From Chloroflexota bacterium (GTDB lineage Bacteria; Chloroflexota; UBA11872): DNA of 64,000 nucleotides. This document shows, in pieces, positions 35,884 to 58,757 of the stretch. Under the pieces are notes generated by a model. It did not search any database. It was given only the letters and a program-made list of their open reading frames with translations, and was not told where the DNA came from. The translations under genes were made by a program, and so were the position numbers. The stretch lies in contig JAPOYR010000009.1 of the NCBI GenBank assembly GCA_026706485.1, positions 124,001 to 188,000 of the forward strand, read 5' to 3'. Numbering within the stretch: the first letter of the stretch is position 1; each line of letters begins with the position of its first letter.

Positions 35884-37233
35884 ATGATGCGTCCAATGCT
35901 CGAGCGACTCGAGTCGCGCGCGTCGGCCGGCCGACCCGTGACGGTGGCGCTGGCGGGCGCCGGGCGGTTTGGGACCAGCATCGCGGCGCAGATCGCGCAG
36001 ATGGACGGTCTGCGTCTGGCGGCGGTGGCCGATCCCAATGTGTCCAATGGCGCGGAGGCCCTTCGCGCCGCCGGCTGGGCGGACGACCAGGTGCAGCGCT
36101 GCGAGAGCCCGGTCGCCGCGCAGGCGGCTGTTGAAGCCGGCAATGCCGCGCTTGCGCCCGACGCCGACGCGTTGGTCTCCGCGCCCATCGAGGTGTTCGT
36201 GGACGCGACCGGTATCCCGGACGTGGCCGCCCACAACGCCTGGCAGGCCCTGCGCCGGGGTCGCCATGTCGTGATGGTCACGGTCGAAGCCGACGTGAGC
36301 TGCGGCTGGGCCTTGGCGCGCGAGGCGCGGCGGCAGGACGTGGTTTACACGCTCGCCGCCGGCGACCAGCCGATCGCGATCATGGAGCTGTTCGACTGGG
36401 CCGTCGCGTTGGGCCTGGAACCCGTGGCCGTGGGACGCGGCACGCGGCTCTACCCGCACGACCGTCACGGAGACGCCGATCAAGCCCTGGCGCGGCTCGG
36501 CTACGACGCGGAGACGGCGGGCCGTCTCCGCCTGAACGCGCAGATGTACAACTCGTTTCGCGACGGCACCAAGTCCCAAATCGAGATGTGCGCCGTGTCC
36601 AACATGACGGGCCTGCCGCCGGACCGTCGCGGCATGCACGAGCCGTCGGCCGGCTTGAACGAGCTGGCCGACCTGTTCGCGCCGCGCGAGGCCGGTGGTC
36701 TGTTGCACCGGACGGGCGTGGTCGATCTGGCGAACGCCGTGGCGCCCGACGGCGCGTCGGAGATGCCGGAGCACATCGCCACCGGCGTGTGGGCCGTGGT
36801 CACTTGCGACGACGAGCGCGTGCGCGAGGACCTGCGCATCCACGGCACGCGCGTCTCACGCGACGGCGATCGCACGCTGCTGTTTCGCGAGTACCACCTG
36901 TGCGGCGTAGAGACGCCGCTGAGCATTGCGCAGGCGGCGCTGCTGGGCGCGACATCGGGCGCGCCGCGCGAGACGCCGACCTCCGAGGTGCTGGCATATG
37001 CCAAGCGCGACCTCCAGCCGGGCGACACGCTGGACGGCTCCGGCGGGCAGTTGGTCTACGGCCTGATCGACCGGGCGGAAGCGGGACGTGCCGACGGCGT
37101 GCTGCCGCTGGGGCTTGCCTACGGAGCCCTTGTGCGCGAGCCCGTGGCCGCCGATCAGCCGATTCCTGTGGATGCGGTGTGCGCGGTCCAGGACTCATTC
37201 GTGGCACGGCTGCGTCAGGAGGCCGGCGCATAG
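35884..37233 (+). CDS. Homoserine dehydrogenase-like oxidoreductase with C-terminal SAF domain
   Basis: A 449-residue protein. The N-terminal Rossmann domain has VALAGAGRFGTSIAAQIAQM (about 21-40), and the central domain resembles the homoserine-dehydrogenase catalytic domain (IEMCAVSNMTGLPPDRRGMH). The C-terminal about 90 residues (VLAYAKRDLQPGDTLDGSGG to VAADQPIPVDAVCAV) form a SAF (antifreeze-like/flagellar FlgA) domain. Proteins of this architecture are NAD(P)-dependent and act on sugar acids or related compounds. The substrate is not determined. It converges with, and overlaps by 19 bp, the last gene of the seven-gene membrane array on the opposite strand. Confidence 0.8.
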   Translation: MMRPMLERLESRASAGRPVTVALAGAGRFGTSIAAQIAQMDGLRLAAVADPNVSNGAEALRAAGWADDQVQRCESPVAAQAAVEAGNAALAPDADALVSAPIEVFVDATGIPDVAAHNAWQALRRGRHVVMVTVEADVSCGWALAREARRQDVVYTLAAGDQPIAIMELFDWAVALGLEPVAVGRGTRLYPHDRHGDADQALARLGYDAETAGRLRLNAQMYNSFRDGTKSQIEMCAVSNMTGLPPDRRGMHEPSAGLNELADLFAPREAGGLLHRTGVVDLANAVAPDGASEMPEHIATGVWAVVTCDDERVREDLRIHGTRVSRDGDRTLLFREYHLCGVETPLSIAQAALLGATSGAPRETPTSEVLAYAKRDLQPGDTLDGSGGQLVYGLIDRAEAGRADGVLPLGLAYGALVREPVAADQPIPVDAVCAVQDSFVARLRQEAGA

Positions 37234-39509
37234 ACCGCGATCTCGTCGTTGCGCCAGAGTTGAATCCACGTCTGGGTAGTCGCCAGCGACGGCTCGACCG
37301 ACGCCGGCAGGACCACCAGATCGGGCGCCTGCTCGCCCAACGGCTCAACCGTCCACGGCGTGGGCGCCTGGAGGTGCAGGGGCTGCGTGTCCACGGCGCC
37401 GGTCAGGCGCGTGTGGGACAGCACCGAGGCGACGCGCAGTCCGTCTAACCAGCCGAGCTCCGGGGCGAGATGCACGACCGCCGCCGACGGCGCCGCGCGG
37501 AGCGCTTCGAATGACTCGGGATGCGGCTCGACGTCGAGCCTTAGGAACGCCTGCCTGATGCGGTAAAGCGCTTCGGCGCCGTCGCGCGCCAGGAGTTCGA
37601 ACAGGCTCGGATCGGCCAACCAGCCCCGCGCCCGCGGTGGCAGCGCGGCCGCCCAGGCGTCCGTGGCATGGACGTACTCGACGCCCAGCCTGCGGATGGC
37701 GTTGGGCTCCAGGTAGCTGACGGCGTCCAGGTACTCCGGCCCAGTGAAGAAGATCAGGTGGGACAGATTTGGGAACCCTGCGCTACCGGGCCGGCCGGTT
37801 GCCAGGGACACGGCCCAATACGGCCACGCGGGTGTGAGCATGCGGGCGTCCAACGGGATGTGGTCGCGGATGCGGCTCGCCAGCCGGTCCGACATCGCCG
37901 GCATTTCAAACCGCCGCGGAGACGCGGCCGGGCTCTGGCTGCGCTGGTCCCGCGCCGCCCATCCGGTATTGGCCAGCTGCACGCCGCTCCCAACTGCCGC
38001 CGCGAGACTGTGCACAGGGCCCGCAATCGTCGGCCAGACCACGAGGACGACGAGCAGCAGGCCATTGCCGAATCGCCATCGGGCCGACTCCAGGCTCGAA
38101 AGCCGGGCGGCCAGCGCGAGCAGCAGCGCCACGAGCGCCAGATTGCGCGCGTGCCCTGCCAGGCGACTGAGCACCCACGGCGCCGGCGGATAGCTGAGAA
38201 TCAGCCAGGCCATCACCAGCAGTGCGGCCCCCGCAGCCAGTGCCACGACAAGACGATCGCGGCGCGCCAGGACAACGGCGACACCCGCCAAGACCGCGGG
38301 ACCAACGCCCAGCACGCCGATACTCCCCGAACGCGCGTCGAACGCCCCGAGCGCCTGCCAGTGCGTTCCACTGAGGTCCCACGACAGGCCGAGGCCGTTG
38401 GCAGGTCCACCGTCAAGGAGCCCGGTGAAGGCGCCCCCGCCAAACAGCATCAGGAGCACCGCCAGCCCGAGCCCAGCGCCCAGTCGCAGCACTTCGCCGC
38501 CCCCGGGCCGCTCTCGCACGATGTGGACTGCCGCCAGAGCGGCCCACAGGACAACCACGACGGGTGCGAGCGAAGTCACCAAAATGCCGAGGAAGCCGAC
38601 AATTGCCCCGAGCGTCAGCACGCCGGCCCACGTCGCGCGCTCAGGTCCGGCGGCGTGCCCCAGCACCACGAACGTGAGGGCGTATCCGAGAGTGAAGGCT
38701 GGCGTCCAGATGTCGTGCAGCGCCGCCGGTTCCGACGGCCACGACGGACCGAGCGATGGCCAGGTGACCTCGGCAAGGGCGCCCCCGACGTCGCCTGCCG
38801 GGAGTCCGGCGGGCCAGGGAACTTTCAGCACGCCACCGCCCAAGTCGGTCCAGGTCCAGGCGCCGGCCGTGAGCAGCAGCGGAGCAACGACCAGCGCCAC
38901 TCGCCACGCCCCGTGCCGCAACAGCCCCGTCGCCACCACCAAGGCGAAGGATGTCCAGGCGTAGGCGCCCAGCAACTCTTGCACGAACGCCAGGTCGGGC
39001 CCGATCGGCGGCGTGAGCAGGCCGACCAGCAAATCGACGGCGTGGTGGTAGCGCACCGGGCTGCCTGGATTCCAGGGCGTCTCCGGCGGAAATCCGCCCG
39101 CGCGGATCCATGCCGACAACCCCAGATGCAGCGTGGGGTCCGGGCTTTCGAGCAACTGCCGCCCGGCGAGCGTCAGCCACAGCAGGGCCAGGACGGCAAC
39201 GGCGAAGGCCGCCGCCATGCGTGGGTGAGGCCGGATCGGGTGGGGCGCGCGCCACGCAAGGACCGCGCCCAGGACCAGCGTGACGCTCCATCCAATGGCC
39301 GCTCCCGCAAGCCCCGGAACAACGTAGAGCACGACGTTCGTGATCAATCCCCACAGCGCGGGGCCGACAACCAGCCCCTGCGCCAACGTCGCCCGTGCAT
39401 CGGTCTGCCGCAGGGCCACGCGGACGACGACATAGCCGACCGCGGCCAGCGCCGCGAGCTCCGCCGCCAGGAGCAGCAGCCCCGGGACAACTGCCGGATC
39501 AACGATCAT
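37215..39509 (-). CDS. Array member 1: polytopic GT-C-like membrane protein, truncated
   Basis: The last and shortest member of a seven-gene tandem array (764 residues; the others are 935-957). The N-terminal half has about 12 hydrophobic segments. The first long loop, near residues 120-165, contains DPTLHLGL, RAGGFPPETPW and RYHHAVDLL, the layout of GT-C glycosyltransferase loops. The GHARN motif occurs near 445, then extracytoplasmic motifs TGRPGSAGF, YLEPNAIRRLGVEYVHATDAW and LADPSLFELL. It stops at WRNDEIAVYAP plus two residues, exactly where the other six continue into a beta-rich C-terminal domain. The truncation lies inside the overlap with the SAF gene, so the end was probably lost by recombination. 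Function is not known; glycosyl or other transfer at the membrane is inference. Confidence 0.75.
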   Translation of the reverse strand: MIVDPAVVPGLLLLAAELAALAAVGYVVVRVALRQTDARATLAQGLVVGPALWGLITNVVLYVVPGLAGAAIGWSVTLVLGAVLAWRAPHPIRPHPRMAAAFAVAVLALLWLTLAGRQLLESPDPTLHLGLSAWIRAGGFPPETPWNPGSPVRYHHAVDLLVGLLTPPIGPDLAFVQELLGAYAWTSFALVVATGLLRHGAWRVALVVAPLLLTAGAWTWTDLGGGVLKVPWPAGLPAGDVGGALAEVTWPSLGPSWPSEPAALHDIWTPAFTLGYALTFVVLGHAAGPERATWAGVLTLGAIVGFLGILVTSLAPVVVVLWAALAAVHIVRERPGGGEVLRLGAGLGLAVLLMLFGGGAFTGLLDGGPANGLGLSWDLSGTHWQALGAFDARSGSIGVLGVGPAVLAGVAVVLARRDRLVVALAAGAALLVMAWLILSYPPAPWVLSRLAGHARNLALVALLLALAARLSSLESARWRFGNGLLLVVLVVWPTIAGPVHSLAAAVGSGVQLANTGWAARDQRSQSPAASPRRFEMPAMSDRLASRIRDHIPLDARMLTPAWPYWAVSLATGRPGSAGFPNLSHLIFFTGPEYLDAVSYLEPNAIRRLGVEYVHATDAWAAALPPRARGWLADPSLFELLARDGAEALYRIRQAFLRLDVEPHPESFEALRAAPSAAVVHLAPELGWLDGLRVASVLSHTRLTGAVDTQPLHLQAPTPWTVEPLGEQAPDLVVLPASVEPSLATTQTWIQLWRNDEIAVYAPAS

Positions 39510-39643
39510 TCGCCCACTCTTACCGGATGCGTCGGCGCTCGCGATGCGTCACATGGTGCTACGCGATTCTGCTGGCGGCAGGCGGGTCCGCCGCGTGAGC
39601 GCCGCGCGCCGCCGATTCGGCGCAAACACGGCCTGGCGGAACG

Positions 39644-42496
39644 CTACGGCAGCGATTCGCCGCGGACGTTCTCGTGCACCGAGGAGGTGACCCGTCCGTC
39701 CTCGGCGACGTCAATCCGCATCACCGGAATGAAGGCCGCCTCCCGCCAGCGGTTTGGCTGCCATTCGTGCTGCAGGCGGAGCGCCAAGACCCAAGTCCCC
39801 GCGCCCAAGCCGCCCTCCGAGGCGTCGAGCGGCGTCAAGGCCCCGCGGTCGTTCCGCACGGCCAGGGTGGCCGCCGCCACATCGAATTCGTACGAGTGCG
39901 TGCTGCTGGCTGAATTCGACGAGATCAGCCCGGCAAACCACTTGGCGATCTCCGGACCAAGGCGGTGGTCGGGAAAGATGGCGGGCAGCTCCCACGGCCA
40001 GGTGTCCACCGGCACCACCACCCAATCCTGCCCGGTCCAACGCTCCGGCGCCTGGTTGTCGAACGTGGCGGTAAAGGCAATGCGACCGTCTTCGAGGACG
40101 GCATCGGTAATCTGGACGGCCACCGGCGGCGCTTCGAGTGTCACCCGCGGCGGCGTGATTGACGCGACGGTCCCGTTGGGGGCGTAGACCGCGACGACCT
40201 CGTTCCGCCAGATGGGCTGCCGGGCGCCGGGGGGAAAGCCCCACGTCCACGGTTCGACGGACGCCGGGAGGACGATCAGGTCCGGAATGTCCTCGCCGGG
40301 CGGCTCCACCGTCCAGGGCGGGGGCGTACGCGCGGCCAGCCGCAGCGTGTTGATGGCGCCCACGAGTTGGGCGTGAGGCAGGACCGACGCGACTCGAAGC
40401 CGGTCCAGCCAGTTGCTCTGTGGGGCGAGGTAGACCGACGTCGATGGCGGTACCGACCGCAGCGCTTCAAACGACTCGGGGTCCGGCGCCACGTCGAGTT
40501 CGAGGAATGCCGGCTGAATGCGATAAAACGCCTCGTCGCCGTCGCGGTAGAGAAGCTCGAACAGGCTCGGATCCGCCAGCCACTCGCGGGCCCGAGCCGG
40601 CAGCAAATCTACCCAGGAATCGGTGGCGTGAACGTATTCGAGGCCCAAGCGCCGGATGGCGGCCGGCTCCAAATAGTGGCGGGCGTCCCAATACTCCGGG
40701 CCCGGGTGGTAGATCAGGTAGATCACATCGGCAAAGCCCGCGTTGTTTGGCCGGCCGGTGCCGAGGAACACGTTCCAATAGGGCCACTCGGTGGCGAGCA
40801 CGCGTGCATTCACAGCCGTGTGGTCCCGCATGTAGTCGGCCACGGGTCCCGTCAAGGCCCGAAGTTGAAACCGGCGCATGGGCACGTCCACGCCCCGGTC
40901 GCGCAGCTCCGTCTGCACCCACCGGGCGTTGGCCAGCTGCACGCCATTGCCGATCGCCAAACCCAGACTGCGGGCGGGCGCCACGACGGTGGGCCAGGTG
41001 ATCAGGGCGACCAGAACCGCGCCGGCGGCGTAGCGCCAGCGTCCGGGTGGGAAGGTGGAAAGGCGCGAACTCATCGCGAGCACCAGCGCCAAGAGCGCGA
41101 GGTTGCGGGCATGTCCCGCGATGCGGTTGGTGTCCCAAGGCGCTGGCGGATAGGTGAGCGCCAGCCAAAGCAGCACCAGCAATCCGGCGCACGCCGCCAG
41201 CGTCACCACCAGCCGGTCGCGCCGCGCCAACACCACCGCCGCGCCACCAAGCGCCACCGGCCCCAAGCCCAGCAGGCCCAGGCCGCCGGGACGCGCGTCG
41301 AACGAGCCCAGCGCTTGCCATTGCACCGAATCAAGGCTCTCTGCCAGCGTCAGGCCAGCCTGCGGCGATCCATCCAGCAATCCTGTGAAGGCGCCGCCGC
41401 CGCCGAGAAGCAGCAGTCCACCCAGGACCGGACCGGCGCCCAGGCGGAGTGCCGTCGGCACCGGCGGCTCGGTCTGGCGAGCGCGCAGGAAGTGCATCAC
41501 GGCCAGTCCGGCCCAAGCGATCAGGACCACCGGAACGAGCGTGGTCGAAAGGACGCCCAGGAAGCCGACCAATCCCGCGAGCGTCAGCGTCGCTCCCCAG
41601 GACCAGCGTTCATGACGCGCCGCGAAGTTCAGCACCACGAAAGCCAGGGCGTATCCCAGCGGGAATCCGGGTTTCCAAATGTCCGGCAGCACTTGTAAGA
41701 AGTTCGCGCTCGCCGACAACTCGACGTGCGGCCAATAGATGTCGGTGAACGAGGCCCGAATGCCGGCCTCGGGGAGTCCGGCCGGTAGGGGCAGCTGCAG
41801 AACCCCTGCGCCGACGTTGCTGAAGGTCCAGAGTCCGCTGCTCAGCATGAGCGGGGCGGTGACGATCACGCCGACGAGCGATGCCCGCTGCAGCAGCGCG
41901 GTGGTCACGATCAGGACCAGGGTCGTCCAGGCGTAGGCGCCGAGCAGTTCGGAGACGAACGCGAGGTCCGGTCCGAACGGCGGCGTCAGCAGACCCACGA
42001 GGAGATCGGTGCCGTGGTGATAGCGGATGAGCGTGCCCGAGTGCCACGGCAACTCCGGCGGGAATCCGCCCGCACGGATCGTGGCGGCCAGCCCGAGATG
42101 GATGGGTGGGTCGGGAATCAGCATCAGCTGGCGGCTGGCGAGCGCCGCCCACATGAGCGCCAGGACCGCCACGGCGAAGCCCGCGGCCACCCGCGGCCGC
42201 GGACGTATGGCGCGCGGCGCCCGCCACGCCAGGGCCGCACCCAGGGCGAGCGTGATGCTCCAGCCGACGGCCGCCCCCGCGAGCCCCGGAACGACGTAGA
42301 GCACGAAATTGGTGAACAAGCCCCAGAGGGCGAGCCCAACGGCCAGACCCTGGGCCAACGCCACCCGATCGTCGGTCTGTCGCAGCACCACCCGCGCCAC
42401 CACGAATCCGACGGCCGCCAGCGCGGTCAGCTCGGCCGCCAGCAGCAGCAGACCCGGAATGGCCGCCGGATCGACGGTCAAGCGCGCCGCCCCCAC
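39644..42496 (-). CDS. Array member 2: polytopic GT-C-like membrane protein
   Basis: A 950-residue paralogue (945 if the TTG at 42481, which aligns with the other starts, is used). The loop motifs are DPPIHLGL, RAGGFPPELPW and RYHHGTDLL, then DIYWPHVELS and DIWKPGFPLGYAL, and PPAPWDTNRIAGHARN near 450. The second half includes RPNNAGF, HYLEPAAIRRLGLEYVHATD and LADPSLFELLYRDGDEAFYR. The C-terminal domain (about residues 760-945) has RWTGQDWVVVPVDTWPW and HEWQPNRWREAAFIP. Residues about 500-620 are almost identical to array member 3, which suggests recent duplication or gene conversion. The spacer to member 1 is 134 bp. Confidence 0.75.
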   Translation of the reverse strand: MGAARLTVDPAAIPGLLLLAAELTALAAVGFVVARVVLRQTDDRVALAQGLAVGLALWGLFTNFVLYVVPGLAGAAVGWSITLALGAALAWRAPRAIRPRPRVAAGFAVAVLALMWAALASRQLMLIPDPPIHLGLAATIRAGGFPPELPWHSGTLIRYHHGTDLLVGLLTPPFGPDLAFVSELLGAYAWTTLVLIVTTALLQRASLVGVIVTAPLMLSSGLWTFSNVGAGVLQLPLPAGLPEAGIRASFTDIYWPHVELSASANFLQVLPDIWKPGFPLGYALAFVVLNFAARHERWSWGATLTLAGLVGFLGVLSTTLVPVVLIAWAGLAVMHFLRARQTEPPVPTALRLGAGPVLGGLLLLGGGGAFTGLLDGSPQAGLTLAESLDSVQWQALGSFDARPGGLGLLGLGPVALGGAAVVLARRDRLVVTLAACAGLLVLLWLALTYPPAPWDTNRIAGHARNLALLALVLAMSSRLSTFPPGRWRYAAGAVLVALITWPTVVAPARSLGLAIGNGVQLANARWVQTELRDRGVDVPMRRFQLRALTGPVADYMRDHTAVNARVLATEWPYWNVFLGTGRPNNAGFADVIYLIYHPGPEYWDARHYLEPAAIRRLGLEYVHATDSWVDLLPARAREWLADPSLFELLYRDGDEAFYRIQPAFLELDVAPDPESFEALRSVPPSTSVYLAPQSNWLDRLRVASVLPHAQLVGAINTLRLAARTPPPWTVEPPGEDIPDLIVLPASVEPWTWGFPPGARQPIWRNEVVAVYAPNGTVASITPPRVTLEAPPVAVQITDAVLEDGRIAFTATFDNQAPERWTGQDWVVVPVDTWPWELPAIFPDHRLGPEIAKWFAGLISSNSASSTHSYEFDVAAATLAVRNDRGALTPLDASEGGLGAGTWVLALRLQHEWQPNRWREAAFIPVMRIDVAEDGRVTSSVHENVRGESLP

Positions 42497-42626
42497 GTCA
42501 AAGCCATCGCAGACTCGTGAGCCGCAGCCTCACCAGGGCAGAGGTTGAGGGAAGCCTCCGGCGACGGCGCGCCGCCGGAGTCATGTTCGTCCAGACAAGG
42601 CATCGCGCCCATCTTGCCCGACCTGG

Positions 42627-45485
42627 CTACGGGGTCGCCTGAGTCCCGGGCGGCAACGTCGCCACGCCCACGTCGTCGAAAACCGCGAACGTGACCTGAC
42701 CGGCATCGGAGATCGTGATCTCCAGCGCCGGAATGAAGGCGACCTCCCGCCAAACGTTTGGCTGCCACTCGTGCCGCAGGCGGATCGCCAGCACCCAAGT
42801 TCCCGCGCCCAGGTCGCCCTCGGCTGCGTCCAGCGGCACAAAGGCCCCGGCGTCGTTGCGTACCGCCAAGCGTGCCGTCGGCACGTCGAATTCGTAGGTA
42901 TGTGGGCCGGTCGCCGAACCCGACGAGATCAGGCCGTCAAACCATTTCGCCACTGCAGGTCCGCGGCCGTCGCCCAGAAACCTGGCGGGAAGCGGCCACG
43001 GCCCATCGTCCAGCTCGACGATGACCCAATCTTGTCCCGTCCAGCGCTCCGGCGCCCGGTCATCGAAGGTGGCGGAAAAGACGATGCGTCCATCGTCAAT
43101 GCGGGCATCGGCGACCTCGACGGCCACCGGCGGTGCTTCGAGCACCGCCCGGGACGGCGTGATTGGTGCGACGGCTCCGTTTGGCGCGTAGACGGCTACC
43201 GCGTCGTTCTGCCAAATGGGTTGCCGGCTGCCGGGCGGAAACATCCACGTCCACGGTTCGACGGACGCCGGGAGGACGATCAGGTCGGGTGCGTCCTCAC
43301 CCAGCGGCTCAACCGTCCACGGCTCAGTCGTGCGCACGTGCAGCGGCAGTGAGTGGATGGCGCCGACCAGCCGGGTGTGCCGCAGCGTCGACGCGACGCG
43401 GAGTCGGTCCACCCAAATGGTTTGCGGAGTCAGGTAGACCGTGGTGGCCGGCGGCACCGAGCGCAGCGCCTCAAACGACTCGGGATGCGGCGCGACATCG
43501 AGCTCGCGGAATGCCGGCCGAATGCGATAGAGCGCCTCGTCGCCCACGCGGATCAACAGCTCGAACAGGCTCGGATCCGCCAGCCATTGCCGGGCCCGAT
43601 CCGGCAGCGACGCTGCCCACAGGTCGGTGGCGTGAACGTATTCGAGGTCCAGGCGCCGGATGGCGGCTGGCTCCAGGTAGTGGCGGGCGTCCCAATACTC
43701 CGGGCCTCGGTGGTAGTTCAGGTGGATCACGCTGGCAAAGCCCGCGTTGTTCGGCCGGCCGGTGCCGAGGAACACGTTCCAATAGGGCCACTCGGTGGCG
43801 AGCACGCGTGCATCCACGGCTGTGTGGTCCCGGATGTAGTCCGCCACGGGTCCGGTCAATGCCCGTAGCTGAAACCGGCGCAAGGGCACGTCCACGCCCC
43901 GGTCTCGCAGTTCCGTCTGCACCCACCGGGCATTGGCCAGCTGCACGCCGTGGCCGACCGCGAGGCCGAGGTTGCGCGCGGGTGTCATCGCCGTTGGCCA
44001 GATGATGAGACCCACCACCAGCGCGCCAACACCGACGCGCCAACGTCCGGGCGGAAGGTCGGAGAGGCGGGAGCCGAGCGCCAACAACAGCGCCACGAGT
44101 GACAGGTTGCGGGCGTGCCCCGCCAGGCGGTTGAGATCCCACGGCGCCGGCGGATAGGTCACCGCGAACCAGACCAGCACCAGCACGCCGGCGCACGCTG
44201 CCAGCGTCACCACCAGTCGGTCGCGCCGCGCGAGGGCCACCGCCACGCCCGCAAGCGCGACCGGCCCCAAGCCCAGCAGGCCCAGGCCGCCAGGACGCGC
44301 CTCGAACGACCCTAGCGCCCGCCAGTGCTCCGACTCGAGGCCCTGCGCCAGGATCAAGGTTGACGGCCGCGATCCGTCCAAGACTCCGGTAAACGCGCCG
44401 CCGCCGCCGAGCAGCAACAGCCCGGCAAGCACGGGGCCCGCGCCCAATTGCAGCGCCGCCCGCGCCGCCGGCTCGGTCCTTCGATCACGGAAAAAGCGCA
44501 CCAGCGCCAAACCGGCCCACACGACCAGCACCGCCGGCGTGAGCGTGATGGACAGCAGGCCCAGGAAGCCGACCAGGCCGGCCAGCGTCAGCGCATCTCG
44601 CCACGACCAACGCTTGCCGCCCGCCGCGTGTTGCAGCACCACGAAGGCCACGGCGTATCCCAGCGGGTATGAAGGCTTCCAGATGTCGGCCAATGCATTG
44701 GACCGATCCGTGACCGGGGGCAGTTCGACGTGCGGCCAATAGACATCGCCGAGCGACGCGCGCAGGCCCGCCTCGGGCAGCCCGGTCGGAATGGGCAGCT
44801 GCAACACGCCGGGTCCAACATTGGTGAGGGTCCAGAGACCGCTGCTGAGCATGAGCGGGACCGTGACCAGCAGGCCGACGAGTGATGCCCGCTGCAGCAC
44901 CGCCGTCGCCACGATCAGGACCAGGCTTGTCCAGGCGAAGGCTCCCAGCAATTCGGAGACGAACGCGAGGTCCGGACCGAACGGCGGCGTCAGCAGGCCG
45001 ACGAGAAGGTCCCTCCCGTGGTGATAGCGAATGAGGACGCCCGCGTTCCAGGGCGACTCCGGGGGAAAGCCACCGGCTCTGATGGTGGCGGCCAGTCCGA
45101 GATGGGTTTGCGGGTCGGCAATCACCATCAACTGGCGGCTGGCAAGCGCGACCCACAGCAGCGCCAGCATTGCGACGCTGAACCCGGCGACCGTGCGGGC
45201 CTGGGGCCGCACGCGACGGCTTGTCCGCCAGGCCAGGCCGGCGCCGATGGCCAGCAGGACGGCCCAGCCGACGGCCGCCCCCGCGAGACCCGGGACGATG
45301 TAGAGCGCGAAATTGGTGAGCACGCCCCAGAGGGCGAGACCGACCACCAGCCCCTGGGCCAAGGCTGCACGCTCATCGCTCTGCCGCAGCACGACCCGCA
45401 CGACGATGTAGCCAACCGCGGCCAGGGTGATGAATTCCGCCGCCAGCAGCAGCAGGCCCGGAACGACCGCCGGATCGAGGATCAA
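42627..45485 (-). CDS. Array member 3: polytopic GT-C-like membrane protein
   Basis: A 952-residue paralogue starting at TTG 45485. Hydrophobic segments lie at about 9-32, 44-64, 67-87 and 100-118, with more up to about 500. The first loop has DPQTHLGL (124-131), RAGGFPPE (136-143) and RYHHG (153-157). Further conserved blocks are YWPHVEL (249-255), DIWKPSYPLGYA (267-278), PPAPWDLNRLAGHARNL (445-461), RDHTAVDARVL (552-562), TGRPNNAGF (575-583) and YLEPAAIRRLDLEYVHATD (603-621). The C-terminal domain (about 765-945) includes RWTGQDWVIVELDDGPW and HEWQPNVWREVAFIP. It is nearest to member 2. The 130 bp spacer to member 2 holds no visible gene. The first Asp/His pair (D124, H128) is intact. Confidence 0.75.
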   Translation of the reverse strand: MILDPAVVPGLLLLAAEFITLAAVGYIVVRVVLRQSDERAALAQGLVVGLALWGVLTNFALYIVPGLAGAAVGWAVLLAIGAGLAWRTSRRVRPQARTVAGFSVAMLALLWVALASRQLMVIADPQTHLGLAATIRAGGFPPESPWNAGVLIRYHHGRDLLVGLLTPPFGPDLAFVSELLGAFAWTSLVLIVATAVLQRASLVGLLVTVPLMLSSGLWTLTNVGPGVLQLPIPTGLPEAGLRASLGDVYWPHVELPPVTDRSNALADIWKPSYPLGYAVAFVVLQHAAGGKRWSWRDALTLAGLVGFLGLLSITLTPAVLVVWAGLALVRFFRDRRTEPAARAALQLGAGPVLAGLLLLGGGGAFTGVLDGSRPSTLILAQGLESEHWRALGSFEARPGGLGLLGLGPVALAGVAVALARRDRLVVTLAACAGVLVLVWFAVTYPPAPWDLNRLAGHARNLSLVALLLALGSRLSDLPPGRWRVGVGALVVGLIIWPTAMTPARNLGLAVGHGVQLANARWVQTELRDRGVDVPLRRFQLRALTGPVADYIRDHTAVDARVLATEWPYWNVFLGTGRPNNAGFASVIHLNYHRGPEYWDARHYLEPAAIRRLDLEYVHATDLWAASLPDRARQWLADPSLFELLIRVGDEALYRIRPAFRELDVAPHPESFEALRSVPPATTVYLTPQTIWVDRLRVASTLRHTRLVGAIHSLPLHVRTTEPWTVEPLGEDAPDLIVLPASVEPWTWMFPPGSRQPIWQNDAVAVYAPNGAVAPITPSRAVLEAPPVAVEVADARIDDGRIVFSATFDDRAPERWTGQDWVIVELDDGPWPLPARFLGDGRGPAVAKWFDGLISSGSATGPHTYEFDVPTARLAVRNDAGAFVPLDAAEGDLGAGTWVLAIRLRHEWQPNVWREVAFIPALEITISDAGQVTFAVFDDVGVATLPPGTQATP

Positions 45486-45663
45486 GCCCCCGACCTCCGC
45501 GGCACATCCAGCGGTTGACGTCGGACCTCGACGACCAGATCGCGGTGCTCGAGGCGCGGCGACGGCTTACGACGGCCGCGGCTGCTCGGTTGATCGGGAG
45601 CTCGCAGGCCGCGAGTATTTCTGTCGTCGATCCTGGGCATTTCGTCCATCTTGCCCGACGGAG

Positions 45664-48537
45664 TTATGGCGTTGCTGGACTCTCGGACTGCGACGTCCCG
45701 TCGCGCACGTCGTCGAAGACCGCGACCGCGACCTCACCGGATTCGGCGATTGTGATCCGGAGCACTGGAATGAAGGCCGCTTCCCGCCAAGTTGCAGGCC
45801 GCCACTCGTGCCGCAGCCGCAGCGCCAAGACCCAGGCTCCAGCGCCAAGCACACCCTCCGACGACGGCAGCGGAGTCAAGGCGCCGCGGTCATCGCGGAC
45901 CGACAGGCTGGGAACCTGGACATCGAGTGCGTAGGTGTGGGCGCTCGTCGCCGATCCCGCCGAGAGCAAGCCGTTGAACCACTTGGCCACTTCAGGTCCG
46001 AGGCCGCCGCCCCGGAATCTGGCGGGCATCGGCCACGGCCCATCGTCCAGCTCGACGATGACCCAATCCTGGCCCGTCCAGTGCTCTGGCGTGCGCTCGC
46101 TAAACGCCGCATCGAACGTGACCTGGCCTCGCTCGGCGCTCAGCCCCGACACCCGAACAGCGACGGGCGGCGCGGCGCGGTCCGGCGGCGTCACGATCGG
46201 GGCGACGGACCCGTGCGGCGCGTAGATCACGAGTTCGTCGTTCCGCCAGATCGGTCGCCGCCCGTCGGCGGGTAGAAACATCCAGGTCCAGGGCTCGATC
46301 GACGTGGGAAGGACCACAAGGTCCGGCGTCTGCTCCCCGAGCGGCATCACCTCCCACGGAACGGATGAGCGGGCGAATAGGAGCTCGGTGCGAGCCTCCC
46401 CAAGCAACCGCGCGTGTGACAGCGCTGCAGCGACTCGAAGCTTGGTAAACGGTGGGACATGTGGGGTCAGATGCACCGTGGTGGATGCGGGGATGTCTCG
46501 CAGCGCTTCGAACGATCCGGGGGACGGCTCCGCGGTCAACCCCGTGAATTCCGGCCGCACGCGGTAGAGCGCCTCTGCGCCGTCGCGCACCAAGAGCTCG
46601 AACAGGCCAGGATCGGCCAGCCATCGTTGCGCCCGTGCGGGCAAGCCGGCCACCCAGTCATCCGTCGCATAGATGTAGTCGATCTCCAGCCGCCGGATCG
46701 CGGCCGGCTCGAGATGCTTGAGGGCATCGAGATACTCCGGTCCCTGGTGAAAGATCTGGTGAATGACACCGGCGAATCCCGCGGCGTTGGCGCGCCCGGT
46801 GGCGAGGAACACGCGCCAATAGGGGTGCGGCTCACCGGCGAGCACTCGCGCCTCGGTGGCCGTGTGGTCCCGGATGTAGGTGGCAATGCGGTCGGACAGG
46901 GCCGGCATCGGCGTGCGCCCCGCAGGCCCCGCGGGTTCGGCTTCGCGCCGATCCGGCTCAACCGCCGCGGCGTTGGCCAGCTGGATGCCGTTGCCGACCG
47001 CGAGGCCGGCATGCCGCACGGGTTCCACCACCCTCGGCCAGGCGACAAGCCCCACGAGCAGCACGGCCACCGCATAGCGCCAGCGCCCGGACCACAGTTG
47101 AGGCAGGCGGGTAGCGAGCGCCAACAGCAGACCCACAAGCGCAAAGTTCCGGGCGTGCCCGGCCAGGCGGTTCACGTCCCAGGGCGCGGGCGGATAGCTC
47201 ACCACCAGCCACGCCAGCGCCAGCAGGCCCACGCCTGCTGCCAGTGTCAGCACCAGCCGGCTGCGCCGCTCGAGCAGCAGGGTGATGCCCGCCAACGCCA
47301 CCGGACCGACCCCCACCAGGGCCACGCCGCCGGGCAACGGATCGAACACGCCCAGCAGCAGCCATCCGTCCGGATGGCCATGCCACCCAAGCAAGAGCTC
47401 GGAGGGCGCCGAAGCGTCCAAAAAGCTGGTGAAAAGCCCGCCGCCGGCCAGCAGCAGCAGCGCGGCCAACGCCAGCCCCGCGGCCGACCGCATGGCCGCG
47501 CCCAACGCCGCGCGATCCCGCCGCGACCGCATGAGCCGCAACGCCGCGGAGCCTGCCCACACGGCCGCCACTACCGGAACGAGCGTCGTCACCAGCAGGC
47601 CCAGGAATCCAACCAGCCCGCCGAGTGTGAGAACGGCAGGCCACGACCGGTCTTCCGCGCGTGCCACGCGCTCAAACACCACGAGCGCCAGCGCATAGCC
47701 CAGGGTGAATTCTGGTTTCCAGATGTCGGGCAAGATCGGTGCGGGAAACGTCTCGCCCAGCCCGACCGACGGCCAGTAGATGTCGGTCAGCGACGCGCGC
47801 AGTCCCGCCGCCGGCAGCCCTGCCGGAATGGGAATCTGCAGGATTCCGCCACCCATGCCCTCCCATTCCCACTCGCCAGTCGTCCAGACGCCGATCGTGA
47901 TCAGGAGGGGGGCGAGAATCAGGGCGACCACCCACGAAACGCGCTGGGCGACGAGCGACACGGCCGCCAGCACGTAGCTGATCCAGGCGTAGACGCCCAG
48001 CAATTCCGACACGAACGCCAAGTCCGGCCCAAACGGCGGCGTCAGCAGCCCGACCATCAGCGAGGGGCCGTGGTGATAGCGCAGCGGCGCCCCTGGGCTC
48101 CAGGGCAGCTCCGGCGGAAAAACGCCGGCTCGGATCGTGGTCGCCAAGCCCAGGTGAATCGGCATGTCGGGAATCGGCAGGAGCTGCCGGCTGGCGATCC
48201 CAGCCACGAAGAGCGCCAAAACGACGCCGACGAATGCCGCAACCGTGCGAGGCGGCAGGAGGATTTGGGCGCGCGCGCGCCAGGACAAGACCGCGCCTAG
48301 CGTGAGGAGCGCCCCCCAGCCCACGGCCGCGCCCGCGAGCCCGGGCACGACGTATTGCACGAAGTTGACCACCAGCCCCCACAGCAAAAGGCCGACCGCG
48401 AGACCCTGGGCCAGCGCCAGCCGGTCGTCGGCTTGTCGCAGCGCCACCCGCACCACGACATAGCCCACGGCGGCCAGCACGGCGAGTTCGGCCAGGAGCA
48501 GCAGCAGGCCTGGAAGGACCGTCGGATCAACGGTCAT
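45664..48537 (-). CDS. Array member 4: polytopic GT-C-like membrane protein
   Basis: The longest paralogue, 957 residues, with an ATG start at 48537. The loop motifs are DMPIHLGL, RAGVFPPELPW and RYHHGPSLM. TDIYWPSVGLG and DIWKPEFTLGYAL follow, then PPAPWDVNRLAGHARNF near 450. The second half has TGRANAAGF, HLEPAAIRRLEIDYIYATDD and LADPGLFELLVRDGAEALYR. The C-terminal domain is complete (HWTGQDWVIVELDDGPWPM and HEWRPATWREAAFIP). The Asp and His of the first loop are kept. The spacer to member 3 is 178 bp, the longest in the array, and contains no recognisable sequence. The 117 bp upstream spacer also shows no copy of the oxidoreductase tail. Confidence 0.75.
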   Translation of the reverse strand: MTVDPTVLPGLLLLLAELAVLAAVGYVVVRVALRQADDRLALAQGLAVGLLLWGLVVNFVQYVVPGLAGAAVGWGALLTLGAVLSWRARAQILLPPRTVAAFVGVVLALFVAGIASRQLLPIPDMPIHLGLATTIRAGVFPPELPWSPGAPLRYHHGPSLMVGLLTPPFGPDLAFVSELLGVYAWISYVLAAVSLVAQRVSWVVALILAPLLITIGVWTTGEWEWEGMGGGILQIPIPAGLPAAGLRASLTDIYWPSVGLGETFPAPILPDIWKPEFTLGYALALVVFERVARAEDRSWPAVLTLGGLVGFLGLLVTTLVPVVAAVWAGSAALRLMRSRRDRAALGAAMRSAAGLALAALLLLAGGGLFTSFLDASAPSELLLGWHGHPDGWLLLGVFDPLPGGVALVGVGPVALAGITLLLERRSRLVLTLAAGVGLLALAWLVVSYPPAPWDVNRLAGHARNFALVGLLLALATRLPQLWSGRWRYAVAVLLVGLVAWPRVVEPVRHAGLAVGNGIQLANAAAVEPDRREAEPAGPAGRTPMPALSDRIATYIRDHTATEARVLAGEPHPYWRVFLATGRANAAGFAGVIHQIFHQGPEYLDALKHLEPAAIRRLEIDYIYATDDWVAGLPARAQRWLADPGLFELLVRDGAEALYRVRPEFTGLTAEPSPGSFEALRDIPASTTVHLTPHVPPFTKLRVAAALSHARLLGEARTELLFARSSVPWEVMPLGEQTPDLVVLPTSIEPWTWMFLPADGRRPIWRNDELVIYAPHGSVAPIVTPPDRAAPPVAVRVSGLSAERGQVTFDAAFSERTPEHWTGQDWVIVELDDGPWPMPARFRGGGLGPEVAKWFNGLLSAGSATSAHTYALDVQVPSLSVRDDRGALTPLPSSEGVLGAGAWVLALRLRHEWRPATWREAAFIPVLRITIAESGEVAVAVFDDVRDGTSQSESPATP

Positions 48538-48654
48538 GCGCCCAACCTCGGCGAGGGCTGCCGGCCGCTACGCGCCTGACCTTCCGCGCGGCGCCGGCAT
48601 CGTGCGTCGGCCGCGCGCCAGGATTGCAGCGGGCCGACCGGGCAGTTGGAAGAC

Positions 48655-51462: not shown

Positions 51463-51492
51463 GTCCGCGGCCTCCAGGTGTCCGCCCTGGGT

Positions 51493-51537
51493 CTAATCGA
51501 TGGGTTCGCGCTGTTGATCCGTCACGTCCTCGCCGGC
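51493..51537 (-). repeat. Degraded copy of the Gfo/Idh gene 3' end
   Basis: The 45 bp read on the minus strand as AGEDVTDQQREPID then TAG. They align with the last codons of the oxidoreductase at 57501 (AYQDVTDRKLGLID then TGA), sharing the D-V-T-D core and the final I-D. At DNA level ATCCGTCACGTCCT is identical. The copy is older than the one at 54497. It supports repeated tandem duplication with the neighbouring gene. Confidence 0.6.
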
Positions 51538-51618
51538 GCCGCCAGCGCCGAGCTGCATGCCGCCGCTGGTTGGCATCGCGCCCGTAGCGCGCGAAATCGG
51601 TTACGGCGCCGGCTGAGT

Positions 51619-54453: not shown

Positions 54454-54541
54454 TCAGGCACCCTCCGCCGGAAAGTCAGCGATCAGCGCCACCGGCTCAA
54501 TCGATGAGGCCGAGCATTCGGTCCGTCACGTCCTGGCAGGC
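54454..54541 (-). repeat. Duplicated 3' end of the Gfo/Idh gene plus its spacer
   Basis: From 54451 to 54541 the sequence aligns without gaps to 57455-57545 at an offset of exactly 3004 bp, with about 8 differences by eye. The 54497-54541 part still translates as ACQDVTDRMLGLID then TGA, matching the oxidoreductase C-terminus. The rest of that gene is absent here. This is a duplication footprint rather than a gene. Confidence 0.85.
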
Positions 54542-54616
54542 AATTGTGCCGCCGATGCGATGGTTGCCATCGGCATCGCGACCGCCGGGACAACGGACTC
54601 GCAGCGATGTCGAATC

Positions 54617-57457
54617 TCACGGGAGCCGCATTCCGTCGAGCACGTCTTCGAGAATCTCATACGACACGTCCCCAGTCTCCGAGACCCTTGTCCGCAGCAC
54701 CGGGACAACGGCGGCGTCGCGCCAATGGTTCGGCTGGTGCTCATGCCGCAGGCGAAGCGCCAGCGTATAGCCGCCCGGCCCGAGTTTCGCTGCCGAGGAT
54801 GCCAACGGCACGAAGTCTCCCTGGTCGTTGCGCACCGACAACTCGGACATCTGTGCGTCAAATTGATAGACGTGGGCCGTGGTTGCGCTGCCTGCCGACA
54901 GGAGTCCTGCAAACCACGCGGCAATCGTCGGCTCGCGGCCCTGGCGAAAGACCTCCGTCGGAATCGCCCACGGCGATCGGTCACCCTCCAGCACGACCCA
55001 GTCCTGGCTGGTCCACCCCTGCGAGGCGCGCTCGTCGAAGGACGCTCTGAACTCGATGCGGCCGTCCGCCACCGTCACGTCGGTCAGTTCCACCAGCACC
55101 GGAGGCTCGACCGACGGCGGACCAGTGGGAACCGGAGTGTTCATGAGCTGCGGCACCGCGCCGGCGGGCGCGTAAACCGCGACATCGTCGTGCCACCAAA
55201 TCGGCGCCCGCGCGGAGGGGCCAAACATCCAAGCGCCGGCGTCGGTGGGTATCACGACGAGGTCGGGGGCTTCATCCGTCAGCCGATCGACCTGCCATCT
55301 CGCGGGAGGAATGACGTGGAGGAACAGCGGGTCCAGCTCGCCCACCAGCCGGGCATGCGACAGCGCGGCGCCGACGAGCAACGTGTCGTGGTCCCTGGGC
55401 GGCGTCACCAGATAGACCGTGGCCGATGGCGGCACGGCCTGCCGCAGCGCCTCGAAGGTCGCCGGATCGGGGGCAACGTCGAGGCTCGAGAACGCCCGTC
55501 GTACGCGATAGAGCGCCTGATGTTCGTCTCGGACCACCGGCTCGAACAGCCGAGGATCTTCGAGCCAGGCCTGCGCCCGCTGCGGCAACGTGGCCACCCA
55601 CGAGTCGGTCGCATGCACATACTCGATGCCGAGCCGCCGGACGGCGGACGGCTCGAGATAGCCAAGCACATCGAGTTGCTCGGGACCGGGATGGTAGGTG
55701 TGGTAGGCCTGCCCGACGAAACCCGAGGCGTTCGGTCGGCCGGTGTGCACGCTCAAGGCCCAGGCATTCTTGAGGGAGGTGAAGATGCGCGCGTCGATTG
55801 GCGTGTGATCCCGGACGTAGTCCGCCACCGCTGGCGAGAGGTTTGGCATCGCGTATCGCAGCCTCTCGCGCTCCGGTGACGGTTGGGTAGCCTCGACAGG
55901 CGCGCGCGGGGCATTGGCCACTTCGACCCCGTTTGCCAGGGACATGCCGAGGATGCGAGCGGGTCTTGCGATCGTCGGCCAGACGAGCAGCAGTGCAAGA
56001 AGCCCGCCCGCGGCGTACCGCCAGCGGGGACGCAGGTGGACGAGCCCGCCGCCAAGGGCCAAAACCAGTGCCGCGAGCGCGAAGTAGCGGCCGTGCCCGG
56101 CGACTCGGTTCATATTCCAGGGCGCCGGCGGGTAGTCCAGCAGAATCCATGCCAGCGTGAACATGCCCGCCCCGAGCGCCAGCACCAGAATCAAGCGGTC
56201 TCGCCTTCCCACGACGGCCGCAACGCCCGCAACCATCAGCGGCCCGATCTCGGCGAGCAGACCCGAGCGGTGTGACAGCCGGCCAAGGGTGATGCCCAAT
56301 TCGTCCGGCGCACGCGGCGCGAAGGCCACGCTCCCGGACGACTGACCGTCAAGGAGGCCGGAAAGCCCGCCACCGCCTCCGAGCAACAGGACTGCGGCAA
56401 GCGCCAGCGCCGCAGCTGATCGGAGCGCCGCGCTTCCGAGCGCGGCGCGGGATCGCCTCAGCCGGATAAGGTGGGCGGCCTCGATGCCGACCCATAACAC
56501 GAGCACCACCGGCACGACGCCCGTCTGCGCCAGTCCCAAGAACCCAACTAGCGCCGCCGTCGTCAGTCGAGGGATCCACGCGTCACGGCAAGCGCCAATG
56601 GCCCGCTCGAGCACGACCAGTGACAGGGCATAGGCCAACGTGAACGTGGGCAGCCAAATGTCGGGCAGGGCGCCGGACGGCAATCGCAGACTCGGCGGCG
56701 GGGGCGGCCAGTAGGCTTCCCCAAGCGACGCGGCGGCCGCCGGCGACACGTCCGTGGGTATCGGAACGAGCACGGACAGCACACTGCGCATCCCCACCCA
56801 CGACCAGGCGCCGGCGGTGATGAGCAGCGGTGCGACGACTACCACCGACGTCCACCCGCCGCGCCGCCAGAGCATCGTCACCACGATCAAGGCGAGGCTG
56901 ATCCAGAAATACGCCCCAAGGATTTCGGACACGAAGGCGAAGTCGGGCCCCGTGGGCGGCGCCAGCAGCCCGGTCATCATGTCCACGCCGTAGTGATAGC
57001 GGAGCGGGACTCCCGGATTCCACGAAAGCTCGGGTGGAAATGCGCCGGCCCTGATGGAGGCGCCGACTCCGAGTGATTGATACGCATCGACGACGGACAT
57101 CGTCTGGCGGCTGGCCATCGCCACCCAGAAAATGGCCACGGCCGCGACAGCAAACCCCGCCGCCACCCGGAGCCGCGGGCGAATGGGGCGGGGCGTACGC
57201 CAGACCACGTACGCGCCCAAGCCGAGCACGACCCCCCAGCCGACGAGAGCCCCGGCGAGTCCCGGGACAACGTGCAGGACGAGGCTGACGACGACGCCCC
57301 ACAGCGCCGGGCCAACCACCAAACCCTGGGCCAGCGCCATCACATCGTCCGTCTGCCGCAGCGCCACCCGCGCCACTACATAACCCACGGCGGCCAGCAC
57401 GACGAGTTCGGTGAGGAGCAGGAGCAAGCCCGGCAGGACCGCCGGATCAACGATCAC
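54617..57457 (-). CDS. Array member 7: polytopic GT-C-like membrane protein, first loop altered
   Basis: A 946-residue paralogue and the first of the array in transcription order, starting at GTG 57457, 43 bp downstream of the oxidoreductase stop. The first-loop pattern is DAYQSLGV, so the Asp is kept but the His is lost; RAGAFPPELSW and RYHYGVDMM follow. Other blocks are YWPPPPPSLRL, DIWLPTFTLAYAL, PPAPWNMNRVAGHGRYF (altered from GHARNL), TGRPNASGF, YLEPSAVRRLGIEYVHATDS and FEPVVRDEHQALYR. The C-terminal domain has GWTSQDWVVLEGDRSPW and HEHQPNHWRDAAVVP. The gap suggests the array may be read through from the oxidoreductase. Confidence 0.75.
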   Translation of the reverse strand: MIVDPAVLPGLLLLLTELVVLAAVGYVVARVALRQTDDVMALAQGLVVGPALWGVVVSLVLHVVPGLAGALVGWGVVLGLGAYVVWRTPRPIRPRLRVAAGFAVAAVAIFWVAMASRQTMSVVDAYQSLGVGASIRAGAFPPELSWNPGVPLRYHYGVDMMTGLLAPPTGPDFAFVSEILGAYFWISLALIVVTMLWRRGGWTSVVVVAPLLITAGAWSWVGMRSVLSVLVPIPTDVSPAAAASLGEAYWPPPPPSLRLPSGALPDIWLPTFTLAYALSLVVLERAIGACRDAWIPRLTTAALVGFLGLAQTGVVPVVLVLWVGIEAAHLIRLRRSRAALGSAALRSAAALALAAVLLLGGGGGLSGLLDGQSSGSVAFAPRAPDELGITLGRLSHRSGLLAEIGPLMVAGVAAVVGRRDRLILVLALGAGMFTLAWILLDYPPAPWNMNRVAGHGRYFALAALVLALGGGLVHLRPRWRYAAGGLLALLLVWPTIARPARILGMSLANGVEVANAPRAPVEATQPSPERERLRYAMPNLSPAVADYVRDHTPIDARIFTSLKNAWALSVHTGRPNASGFVGQAYHTYHPGPEQLDVLGYLEPSAVRRLGIEYVHATDSWVATLPQRAQAWLEDPRLFEPVVRDEHQALYRVRRAFSSLDVAPDPATFEALRQAVPPSATVYLVTPPRDHDTLLVGAALSHARLVGELDPLFLHVIPPARWQVDRLTDEAPDLVVIPTDAGAWMFGPSARAPIWWHDDVAVYAPAGAVPQLMNTPVPTGPPSVEPPVLVELTDVTVADGRIEFRASFDERASQGWTSQDWVVLEGDRSPWAIPTEVFRQGREPTIAAWFAGLLSAGSATTAHVYQFDAQMSELSVRNDQGDFVPLASSAAKLGPGGYTLALRLRHEHQPNHWRDAAVVPVLRTRVSETGDVSYEILEDVLDGMRLP

Positions 57458-57500: not shown

Positions 57501-58757
57501 TCAATCGATGAGGCCGAGCTTTCGATCCGTCACGTCCTGGTAGGCGCTGACGCGGCCGCTGCGCACGTCATCGAGCGTGACCATCGCGCCGATTTGGCTC
57601 GATTCGTGCACCGCCAGCACCAGCGCCACGGCGTCCTCGCCGGCCTCGAGGTCGACCTCCACGGGGTTGCCGGAATCGGTGGCTTCGGCCAGCTCGCCAA
57701 TCTCCAGGGCAATCAGCTTGCGGTCGGCTTGGGGAAACTGAAAGTCATAGCGCGCCATCCGGTCGCCGCCAAAGAGATCCGTCGTCAGCGGGTCCAGCGC
57801 AAAGTCGGGCGCGAGGGCGAGCACTTCGGCATCGTCCAGTGGCTCCGCGCCGCCCCGCCAGACTTTCAGCGGACGGCCGCTGCGCACGCCGAACGTTTCG
57901 AGCCGGCCCTCCGACCCCAGCACCGCGCTCAGGCTCTCGCCGCCATCCGGGGCCGAGAGCTCGAGTCCCCAGGTGCCCGCGGCGCCCGAGGCGAACCCCA
58001 GCATGGCCTGCAGCGAGTCGGGCGCGGTGGCCTCGAACGTGTCCGGCAATTCCGCACGGAATCGCGCGTACATGCCGCTGGGGGCTTCGTGGATGCGGCC
58101 GGTGGTGCGCACCGGCTCCAGCAGCCGCGTGATGCCGGCCACCCGGTCCACGGGGCCCATGAGGTACTGAATCATGTCGGCGTAGTGCACGCCCACATCC
58201 ATCAGCGGGCCGCCGTCCTCCCGGAAATGCCGCCAGGGCGTGATGAGCATGGCGTCGCTGCCGCCGGCCCGCAGCTCGACAATGGAGCGCGGCTCGCCGA
58301 TGGCGCCTGCGTCCAGCAGCGCGCGCGCGAGCCGGAGGATCGGGTCGCGCCGATAGTTCTCCGCGACCGAGACCAGGCGCCCGGAGCGCGACGCCGCCGC
58401 GCGAATTCGGGCGCAGCCTCGCATCGTGACCGCCAGCGGCTTTTCGACGAGCACGTGCAGTCCGGCGTCCAGCGCGTCGGCGGCCGCGACGTGATGGGCG
58501 CCGGCGGTCGTCACAATGTCCGCCGCCACGAGCTCGGGCCGCTGGGCTTTGGCCTCCGCAATGCTGGTGCAGGCGGCGGCGCGGTTGCCCAGGAGGTCGG
58601 CCACCTCTCCGGCCACGAACTCCGCCCGCTCGCGGTCCACGTCCACCACCGCGGCAAGCTCCACCAGGCCCGGACGCACGCGCGCCAGCTCCACGAAGCC
58701 CCGCAAGTGCCGCCGGCCCATCCCACCGCATCCGACCAATGCGAATTGGTGCCCCAT
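57501..58757 (-). CDS. Gfo/Idh/MocA-family oxidoreductase
   Basis: A 418-residue NAD(P)-dependent dehydrogenase. The N-terminal Rossmann glycine motif is FALVGCGGMGRRHLRG (Gly9 to Gly14). The family EKP triplet is at 105-107 in HVLVEKPLAVT, with the catalytic Lys in it, and the C-terminal alpha/beta domain contains VDVGVHYADMIQYLMG with the conserved D-x-x-x-H. Such enzymes oxidise or epimerise sugars, inositols or amino sugars; the substrate is not readable. The last 14 codons have been copied into two spacers of the adjacent membrane array. The start is ATG 58757. Confidence 0.9.
   Translation of the reverse strand: MGHQFALVGCGGMGRRHLRGFVELARVRPGLVELAAVVDVDRERAEFVAGEVADLLGNRAAACTSIAEAKAQRPELVAADIVTTAGAHHVAAADALDAGLHVLVEKPLAVTMRGCARIRAAASRSGRLVSVAENYRRDPILRLARALLDAGAIGEPRSIVELRAGGSDAMLITPWRHFREDGGPLMDVGVHYADMIQYLMGPVDRVAGITRLLEPVRTTGRIHEAPSGMYARFRAELPDTFEATAPDSLQAMLGFASGAAGTWGLELSAPDGGESLSAVLGSEGRLETFGVRSGRPLKVWRGGAEPLDDAEVLALAPDFALDPLTTDLFGGDRMARYDFQFPQADRKLIALEIGELAEATDSGNPVEVDLEAGEDAVALVLAVHESSQIGAMVTLDDVRSGRVSAYQDVTDRKLGLID

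Follow-up and report, generated by a model that had tools for sequence, protein, structure and literature searches.

Seven tandem genes for a putative GT-C-fold membrane glycosyltransferase family in a Chloroflexota bacterium

Results

A tandem array of seven paralogous genes

The stretch of DNA analysed here (the window) comprises 64,000 nucleotides of contig JAPOYR010000009.1, positions 124,001 to 188,000, from a Chloroflexota bacterium of the lineage UBA11872. Between positions 37215 and 57457 of the window lie seven large genes in tandem on the minus strand, whose products are predicted to be membrane proteins with the core of a GT-C glycosyltransferase. The genes, with product lengths in amino acids (aa), are as follows.

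37215..39509, minus strand: copy 1, 764 aa; GT-C core and alpha/beta tail, without the beta-sandwich
39644..42496, minus strand: copy 2, 950 aa
42627..45485, minus strand: copy 3, 952 aa; TTG start; the member modelled with AlphaFold2
45664..48537, minus strand: copy 4, 957 aa
48655..51462, minus strand: copy 5, 935 aa
51619..54453, minus strand: copy 6, 944 aa
54617..57457, minus strand: copy 7, 946 aa

A first-pass annotation of the sequence had described seven same-strand paralogues here, separated by spacers of 117–178 bp. Both points hold: every open reading frame (ORF) is present, the spacers have the lengths given, and the seven proteins align over their full length with pairwise identities of 51–73% and a mean column identity of 66%, a similarity far above chance. 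The single architecture and shared set of motifs that the annotation had assigned to them need some qualification. Six of the seven copies do share one architecture, but copy 1 lacks the C-terminal ~180 aa. Likewise, the aspartate of the proposed D-x3-H motif is found in all seven proteins, but the complete motif in only five; the fourth residue after the aspartate (position 128) is Q in copy 6 and S in copy 7. Other motifs also vary between copies: GHARN becomes GHGRY in copy 7, and TGRPNxAGF becomes TGRPGSAGF in copy 1.

With its annotated GTG start, copy 2 begins with five residues that are not found in any other copy; translation probably starts five codons further downstream. Codon bias favours all seven minus-strand ORFs over the long ORFs on the opposite strand. 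Two of the latter, at 37668–40187 and 46459–48300 on the plus strand, were rejected on this ground as shadow ORFs of high-GC DNA.

Predicted fold and putative catalytic residue

We modelled copy 3 with AlphaFold2 on a 90-sequence alignment, and obtained a mean predicted local distance difference test score (pLDDT) of 89.5 and a predicted template-modelling score (pTM) of 0.87. Three features of the model are used below.

45114..45116, minus strand: codon of Asp124 of copy 3, the putative catalytic residue at the tip of the first juxtamembrane helix (JM1)
43506..43940, minus strand: alpha/beta region of copy 3 resembling the STT3 soluble core, residues 516–660
42672..43145, minus strand: Ig-like beta-sandwich of copy 3, residues 781–938, with a near-invariant WTGQDW motif

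When the model was compared with solved structures using VIA, the top 35 rows were all GT-C proteins, with Z scores from 13.4 to 7.7. The list is headed by STT3 (Z 13.4, 438 residues aligned, 8.3 Å), ArnT (5f15; Z 13.1, 425 residues, 7.8 Å), Pmt1 (Z 13.0, 343 residues, 4.8 Å) and AftA (Z 12.6, 482 residues, 6.3 Å), and the top rows also include AftD (Z 12.1), AftB (Z 11.7), EmbB (Z 10.3) and DPY19. The first four Foldseek matches were CeDPY19 (E 1.2e-5), an oligosaccharyltransferase chain, AftD and EmbC. The part matched to GT-C proteins starts at about residue 90, and is preceded by three extra N-terminal helices (residues 5–32, 38–63 and 66–87). Within the core, the model places the first GT-C transmembrane helix (TM1) at 96–117, JM1 at 125–136, a second juxtamembrane helix (JM2) at 157–165 and TM2 at 173–199, so that loop 1 holds two juxtamembrane helices. 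Basic residues are concentrated in the short loops across the membrane from loop 1. On the strength of the model, the array proteins are predicted to adopt the GT-C_A glycosyltransferase fold. The suggestion of the first-pass annotation that the membrane half is GT-C-like is thus upheld by the model and both structure comparisons.

All GT-C_A enzymes have an essential aspartate at the tip of JM1, between TM1 and TM2 (AftB structure paper, PMC12041299). In the model of copy 3, JM1 spans residues 125–136 between TM1 and TM2, which puts Asp124, directly before this helix, at its tip. Asp124 is kept in all seven window copies and in 104 of the 108 array-family proteins that we collected, with a glutamate in one more; E178, R453, R537, R577 and D599 are invariant in all 108. 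Given its modelled position, Asp124 is the putative catalytic acidic residue.

The outer domain

The long outer half and beta-rich tail of the proteins had been left unexplained by the first-pass annotation; in the model they can now be read as a core resembling the soluble domain of STT3, a second alpha/beta piece and an Ig-like beta-sandwich. Residues 544–655 match the STT3 soluble core on its own (2zag; Z 7.1, 95 residues aligned, 3.0 Å), and the ArnT and AftA alignments also cover these residues. The second alpha/beta piece (661–780) had no match. The sandwich, at residues ~785–935, is predicted with high confidence (pLDDT ~90) both in the full model and when folded alone, and carries a near-invariant W-x-GQ-D-W motif. 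Among solved structures it comes closest to the OgpA C-terminal domain (Z 6.8, 108 residues aligned, 3.4 Å) and to LacZ-type Ig-like domains; the OgpA match is not above background for such folds, and both are too weak to name a family. For the C-terminal part folded alone, Foldseek gave no match below E 0.001 and VIA none at Z ≥ 8, and we therefore call the tail no more than an Ig-like sandwich.

This modelled layout resembles that of the Emb proteins and AftD with their carbohydrate-binding modules. GT-C enzymes with such modules are established: EmbC ends in a lectin-like carbohydrate-binding module (PMC3044687), and a GT136 enzyme also carries one (PMC11127046). By analogy, a carbohydrate-binding role for the terminal sandwich is plausible.

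Relationship to known families

No curated Pfam or NCBIfam model passed its threshold when the array proteins were scanned; all matches were sub-threshold. The closest curated family is DUF2298 (PF10060)/TIGR03662 (Chlor_Arch_YYY), whose weak profile matches over residues 63–215 reached 22 bits at best with hmmscan and 24 bits in a genome search, below the cut-off of 27.8 bits. When the family was aligned by hhalign with 27 genuine DUF2298 sequences of the same class, the E value was 0.0011 but the probability only 20%; the alignment covers residues 14–184 and runs through TM4 and the loop-1 motif FPP-x-x-PW-x2-G-x3-x-Y-[YH]-[YH]. The two families share the order of motifs after the helix corresponding to GT-C TM1, namely an acidic residue in a short segment and then the FPP motif, but the rest of the core cannot be aligned. 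On these sequence grounds DUF2298 is probably a distant relative, and the array family not a member of it. The earlier statement that the proteins have no family name is accordingly right in that no curated family reaches its cut-off, but it had missed this sub-threshold relative with common motifs. The profile search likewise gave no confident match to any well-described family of known function, and a literature search on DUF2298, TIGR03662 and PF10060 found no paper on function.

Among solved GT-C systems, the array proteins share with ArnT/PMT-type GT-C_A enzymes (GT83, GT39) the GT-C_A module, the two juxtamembrane helices of loop 1 and the aspartate at the tip of the first. They differ in having three extra N-terminal helices and a much longer outer domain, and no sequence similarity was found. 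With the mycobacterial arabinosyltransferases (EmbA/B/C, AftA, AftB and AftD) they have in common a GT-C module followed by a large extracytoplasmic C-terminal region; here too no sequence relation was found, and no solved domain is more than weakly similar to the array sandwich. The three-component pentofuranosyl side-chain systems of GT136 (PMC11127046) are alike in combining a GT-C enzyme with an extra carbohydrate-binding module and in using lipid-linked donors outside the membrane, but there the donor synthase and flippase are encoded alongside, whereas no such genes flank the array. The array family is a previously undescribed and unnamed family inside the known GT-C fold class.

Copy number and distribution

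The seven copies of the array are only part of the set: the same genome holds four further full copies, two on contig C3 and two on contig C13, for a total of 11. A distant relative, 29% identical, lies on contig C4. Two partial sequences were also seen. On contig C11 (554196–554921; L012 1519–2295), directly following a carbamoyltransferase gene, a free-standing 258-aa ORF comprises the latter half of the alpha/beta tail and the beta-sandwich, and is either a 5'-truncated C-terminal remnant or a separate sandwich protein. On C13 (33763–34002; L013), a fragment resembles the family over its first ~80 residues alone, as an N-terminal remnant of a lost copy.

Of 41 genomes of the class, 21 were matched strongly by a profile of the family. 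The window's own taxonomic family, with 19 genomes, accounts for 18 of these; two more belong to another family of the same order, and the last is a weak case. The strongly matching genomes have 3–18 matches each; fragments are included in this range, which should not be read as a count of genes in the strict sense. Among 400 genomes sampled across the phylum, 24 matched, nearly all from the same order, and distant relatives (~25–30% identity) are present elsewhere in the class. Genuine DUF2298 proteins, in contrast, number one to three per genome, usually two, in all 31 genomes tested, with no comparable expansion; the expansion is therefore specific to the array family and to one order. Copy number had been expected to vary among relatives, and it does so strongly, both in these match counts and, as described next, at the array site itself.

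A study that sampled the sponges Rhopaloeides and Coscinoderma described Chloroflexota of the class UBA2235 (PMC8163846). In a taxonomic survey, the related lineage UBA11872 turned up in coral and sponge samples only (PMC10608941). The source of the window is likely a sponge symbiont, as its close relatives probably are.

Array position and evolutionary history

The array is bounded by two oxidoreductase genes.

57501..58757, minus strand: GFO/IDH/MocA oxidoreductase, conserved flank of the array
35884..37233, plus strand: DRL/SAF-domain oxidoreductase, conserved flank at the other end

In G002, G003, G004 and G005, the other genus genomes whose arrays were read through, the same two genes enclose the array. 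The site holds seven copies here and 7, 8, 9 and 12 in those four, the 12-copy array being that of G004. Inserted within the latter is a gene for a 513-aa membrane protein without any Pfam match (L142, 15690–17231, minus strand). The sister genus shows a different arrangement: a conserved core of NAD-epimerase, cytochrome c, acetyl-CoA synthetase-like (AcsA-like) and DUF3604 genes separates two arrays that face each other from opposite strands (L115–L130, e.g. L117/L118), with a NUDIX or asparagine-synthase gene on the outer side. Elsewhere in the window, at 28707–30347, a 546-aa protein has a sub-threshold match to GH127 (beta-L-arabinofuranosidase), and its gene lies beside one resembling phytanoyl-CoA dioxygenase.

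To define orthology, we built a tree of the 108 array-family proteins. Five of the seven window copies (1, 2, 3, 4 and 7) group with high support with orthologues in other species, that is, by gene and not by genome. The shortened form of copy 1, always without the sandwich, constitutes one orthologous group in six genomes (the window and five others of the genus); it is always at the same end of the array, and stands tail-to-tail with the DRL/SAF oxidoreductase gene wherever that flank was read. Orthologues of copy 2 occur in G002, G003 and G005, and those of copy 4 in G003 and G005. Copy 7 has its orthologue in the fifth gene of the G003 and G005 arrays, and gene order has thus been altered by gain or loss. 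Copies 5 and 6 have no clear orthologue among the genus genomes examined, and G004 has a clade of its own with six copies.

Between orthologues, omega is mostly 0.1–0.5. It is higher in the outer domains and lowest in the first extracytoplasmic loop (0–0.23), which is among the most constrained regions. Several copies therefore have conserved orthologues under purifying selection, while others are lineage-specific. Simple diversifying selection was ruled out, because omega is below 1 in every region and orthologue pair tested.

We also observed signs of exchange between copies. In window copies 2 and 3, silent divergence falls to about half its usual value over codons 513–602, a dip matched by only 1 of 1000 codon shuffles; we read this stretch as gene conversion. 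In the G005 array (contig C2), codons 301–480 of copies 2 and 9 (L140/L141) are identical, and the flanks differ at ~20–80% of silent sites. This may be gene conversion or possibly assembly collapse.

Discussion

Proposed function of the array proteins

We consider it likely that the array genes encode inner-membrane GT-C_A enzymes that use polyprenyl-phosphate sugars to glycosylate surface molecules, and that the tandem duplicates are kept for distinct acceptor or linkage specificity. We infer their activity, donor, acceptor and specialisation as follows. Each copy would take one sugar from a polyprenyl-phosphate carrier on the outside of the membrane, and Asp124, which lies in the first extracytoplasmic loop, would serve as the catalytic acidic residue. 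The sugar would pass to an envelope acceptor (a surface glycan, a glycolipid or an exported protein) held by the large outer domain, and the terminal beta-sandwich would probably aid carbohydrate binding. The copies would have arisen by tandem duplication and been retained as distinct, simultaneously useful enzymes that differ in acceptor or linkage; gene conversion exchanges stretches between them, and the repertoire changes by lineage-specific gain and loss. As for the donor pathway, the genome has 15 GT2 domains, and includes GT2 proteins whose size and family fit polyprenyl-phosphate sugar synthases; for three of the seven checked, the best-scoring model is a polyprenyl/dolichyl-phosphate sugar synthase or a related one, in each case below the cut-off.

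Several observations weigh against this proposal. The candidate donor synthases are unlinked to the array and match at the family level only, and no glycan-biosynthesis operon surrounds the array within the window. A profile search of PDB sequences retrieved no chain at E up to 10, and hence no solved GT-C enzyme. VIA Z scores of 10–13 are at the edge of what a helical bundle gives without kinship, though every top row is a GT-C protein. In addition, across a wider set of 90 proteins Asp124 is present in 79, and the other 11 have Glu (three) or N, H, R or G (eight); some of these losses are common to several species, so a minority of members may be inactive or work differently.

Alternative functions

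The best surviving alternative is that the proteins act like an oligosaccharyltransferase or ligase in the style of STT3, PglB and AglB, moving a whole lipid-linked glycan onto proteins instead of single sugars. The STT3 chains at the head of the VIA list and the match of residues 544–655 to the isolated STT3 soluble core speak for it, and both have the GT-C_A membrane module. ArnT, AftA and AftB, however, score about equally over the same residues, so the fold does not discriminate, and none of the 108 family proteins contains the WWDYG motif. The array proteins also have no sequence match to STT3, AglB or PglB, and differ from them in the extra N-terminal helices and the Ig-like tail. We regard this alternative as improbable.

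Less probable still is that many of the copies are non-catalytic membrane proteins of GT-C fold, such as scaffolds, glycan-binding proteins or flippase-like proteins. About one-eighth of the diverse set lacks Asp124, with losses shared between species, and the nearest family, DUF2298, offers no published function that we could find; against this, nearly all array copies retain Asp124 together with the invariant E178, R453, R577 and D599, and loop 1 is strongly constrained. Full-length members in which the loop-1 aspartate is replaced by H, N or R include L068 9026–11878, L071 8802–11765, L072 6001–8844, L105 5896–8778 and L088 998–3838. Judging from sequence, members of this kind, whose replacement is often common to several species, are possible conserved pseudoenzymes.

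Why the copies are kept

The first-pass annotation had offered dosage, diversification or switching of surface structures as reasons for keeping seven copies. Tandem paralogues with gene-conversion tracts do resemble the raw material of antigenic variation, with one copy expressed at a time. Each copy here, however, is an intact ORF with its own start, and orthologous copies persist across species under purifying selection. We found no invertible elements, and the spacers hold no invertible repeats; the inverted repeats seen are all imperfect, such as high-GC DNA is expected to contain. No slippery tracts or silent cassettes were found, tandem repeats reach at most 3.3 copies, and the spacers have no conserved or shared sequence element. 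Switching is unsupported for these reasons, and we hold it to be very unlikely. About as unlikely is redundancy for dosage alone: the copies do sit together on one strand with short spacers, but they differ by 27–49% in protein sequence, five of seven have their own orthologues in other species under purifying selection, and further copies are scattered on C3 and C13.

Retention for distinct specificities, our preferred reading, can be carried further, although we think the following extension itself rather unlikely. The arrays may constitute a modular repertoire for envelope glycosylation, restricted to a single order of Chloroflexota that probably live with sponges, in which each copy would serve a different surface acceptor for life with the host, gene conversion would join catalytic cores to different outer domains, and the conserved copies without Asp124 would be non-catalytic or differently catalysing partners.

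Significance

To our knowledge, large and diverged tandem sets of a GT-C enzyme of ~950 residues are uncommon. If the proposed function is correct, these genes represent an unnamed GT-C family with an unusual layout, combining three extra N-terminal helices, an STT3-like core and an Ig-like tail. Genomes of a small, uncultured order hold a dozen copies of it or more beside a near-constant pair of DUF2298 genes, for which the sub-threshold link also suggests a function. The sets of array enzymes would imply a complex and unstudied cell-surface glycan in these bacteria, and would provide natural variants for asking how GT-C enzymes choose their acceptors.

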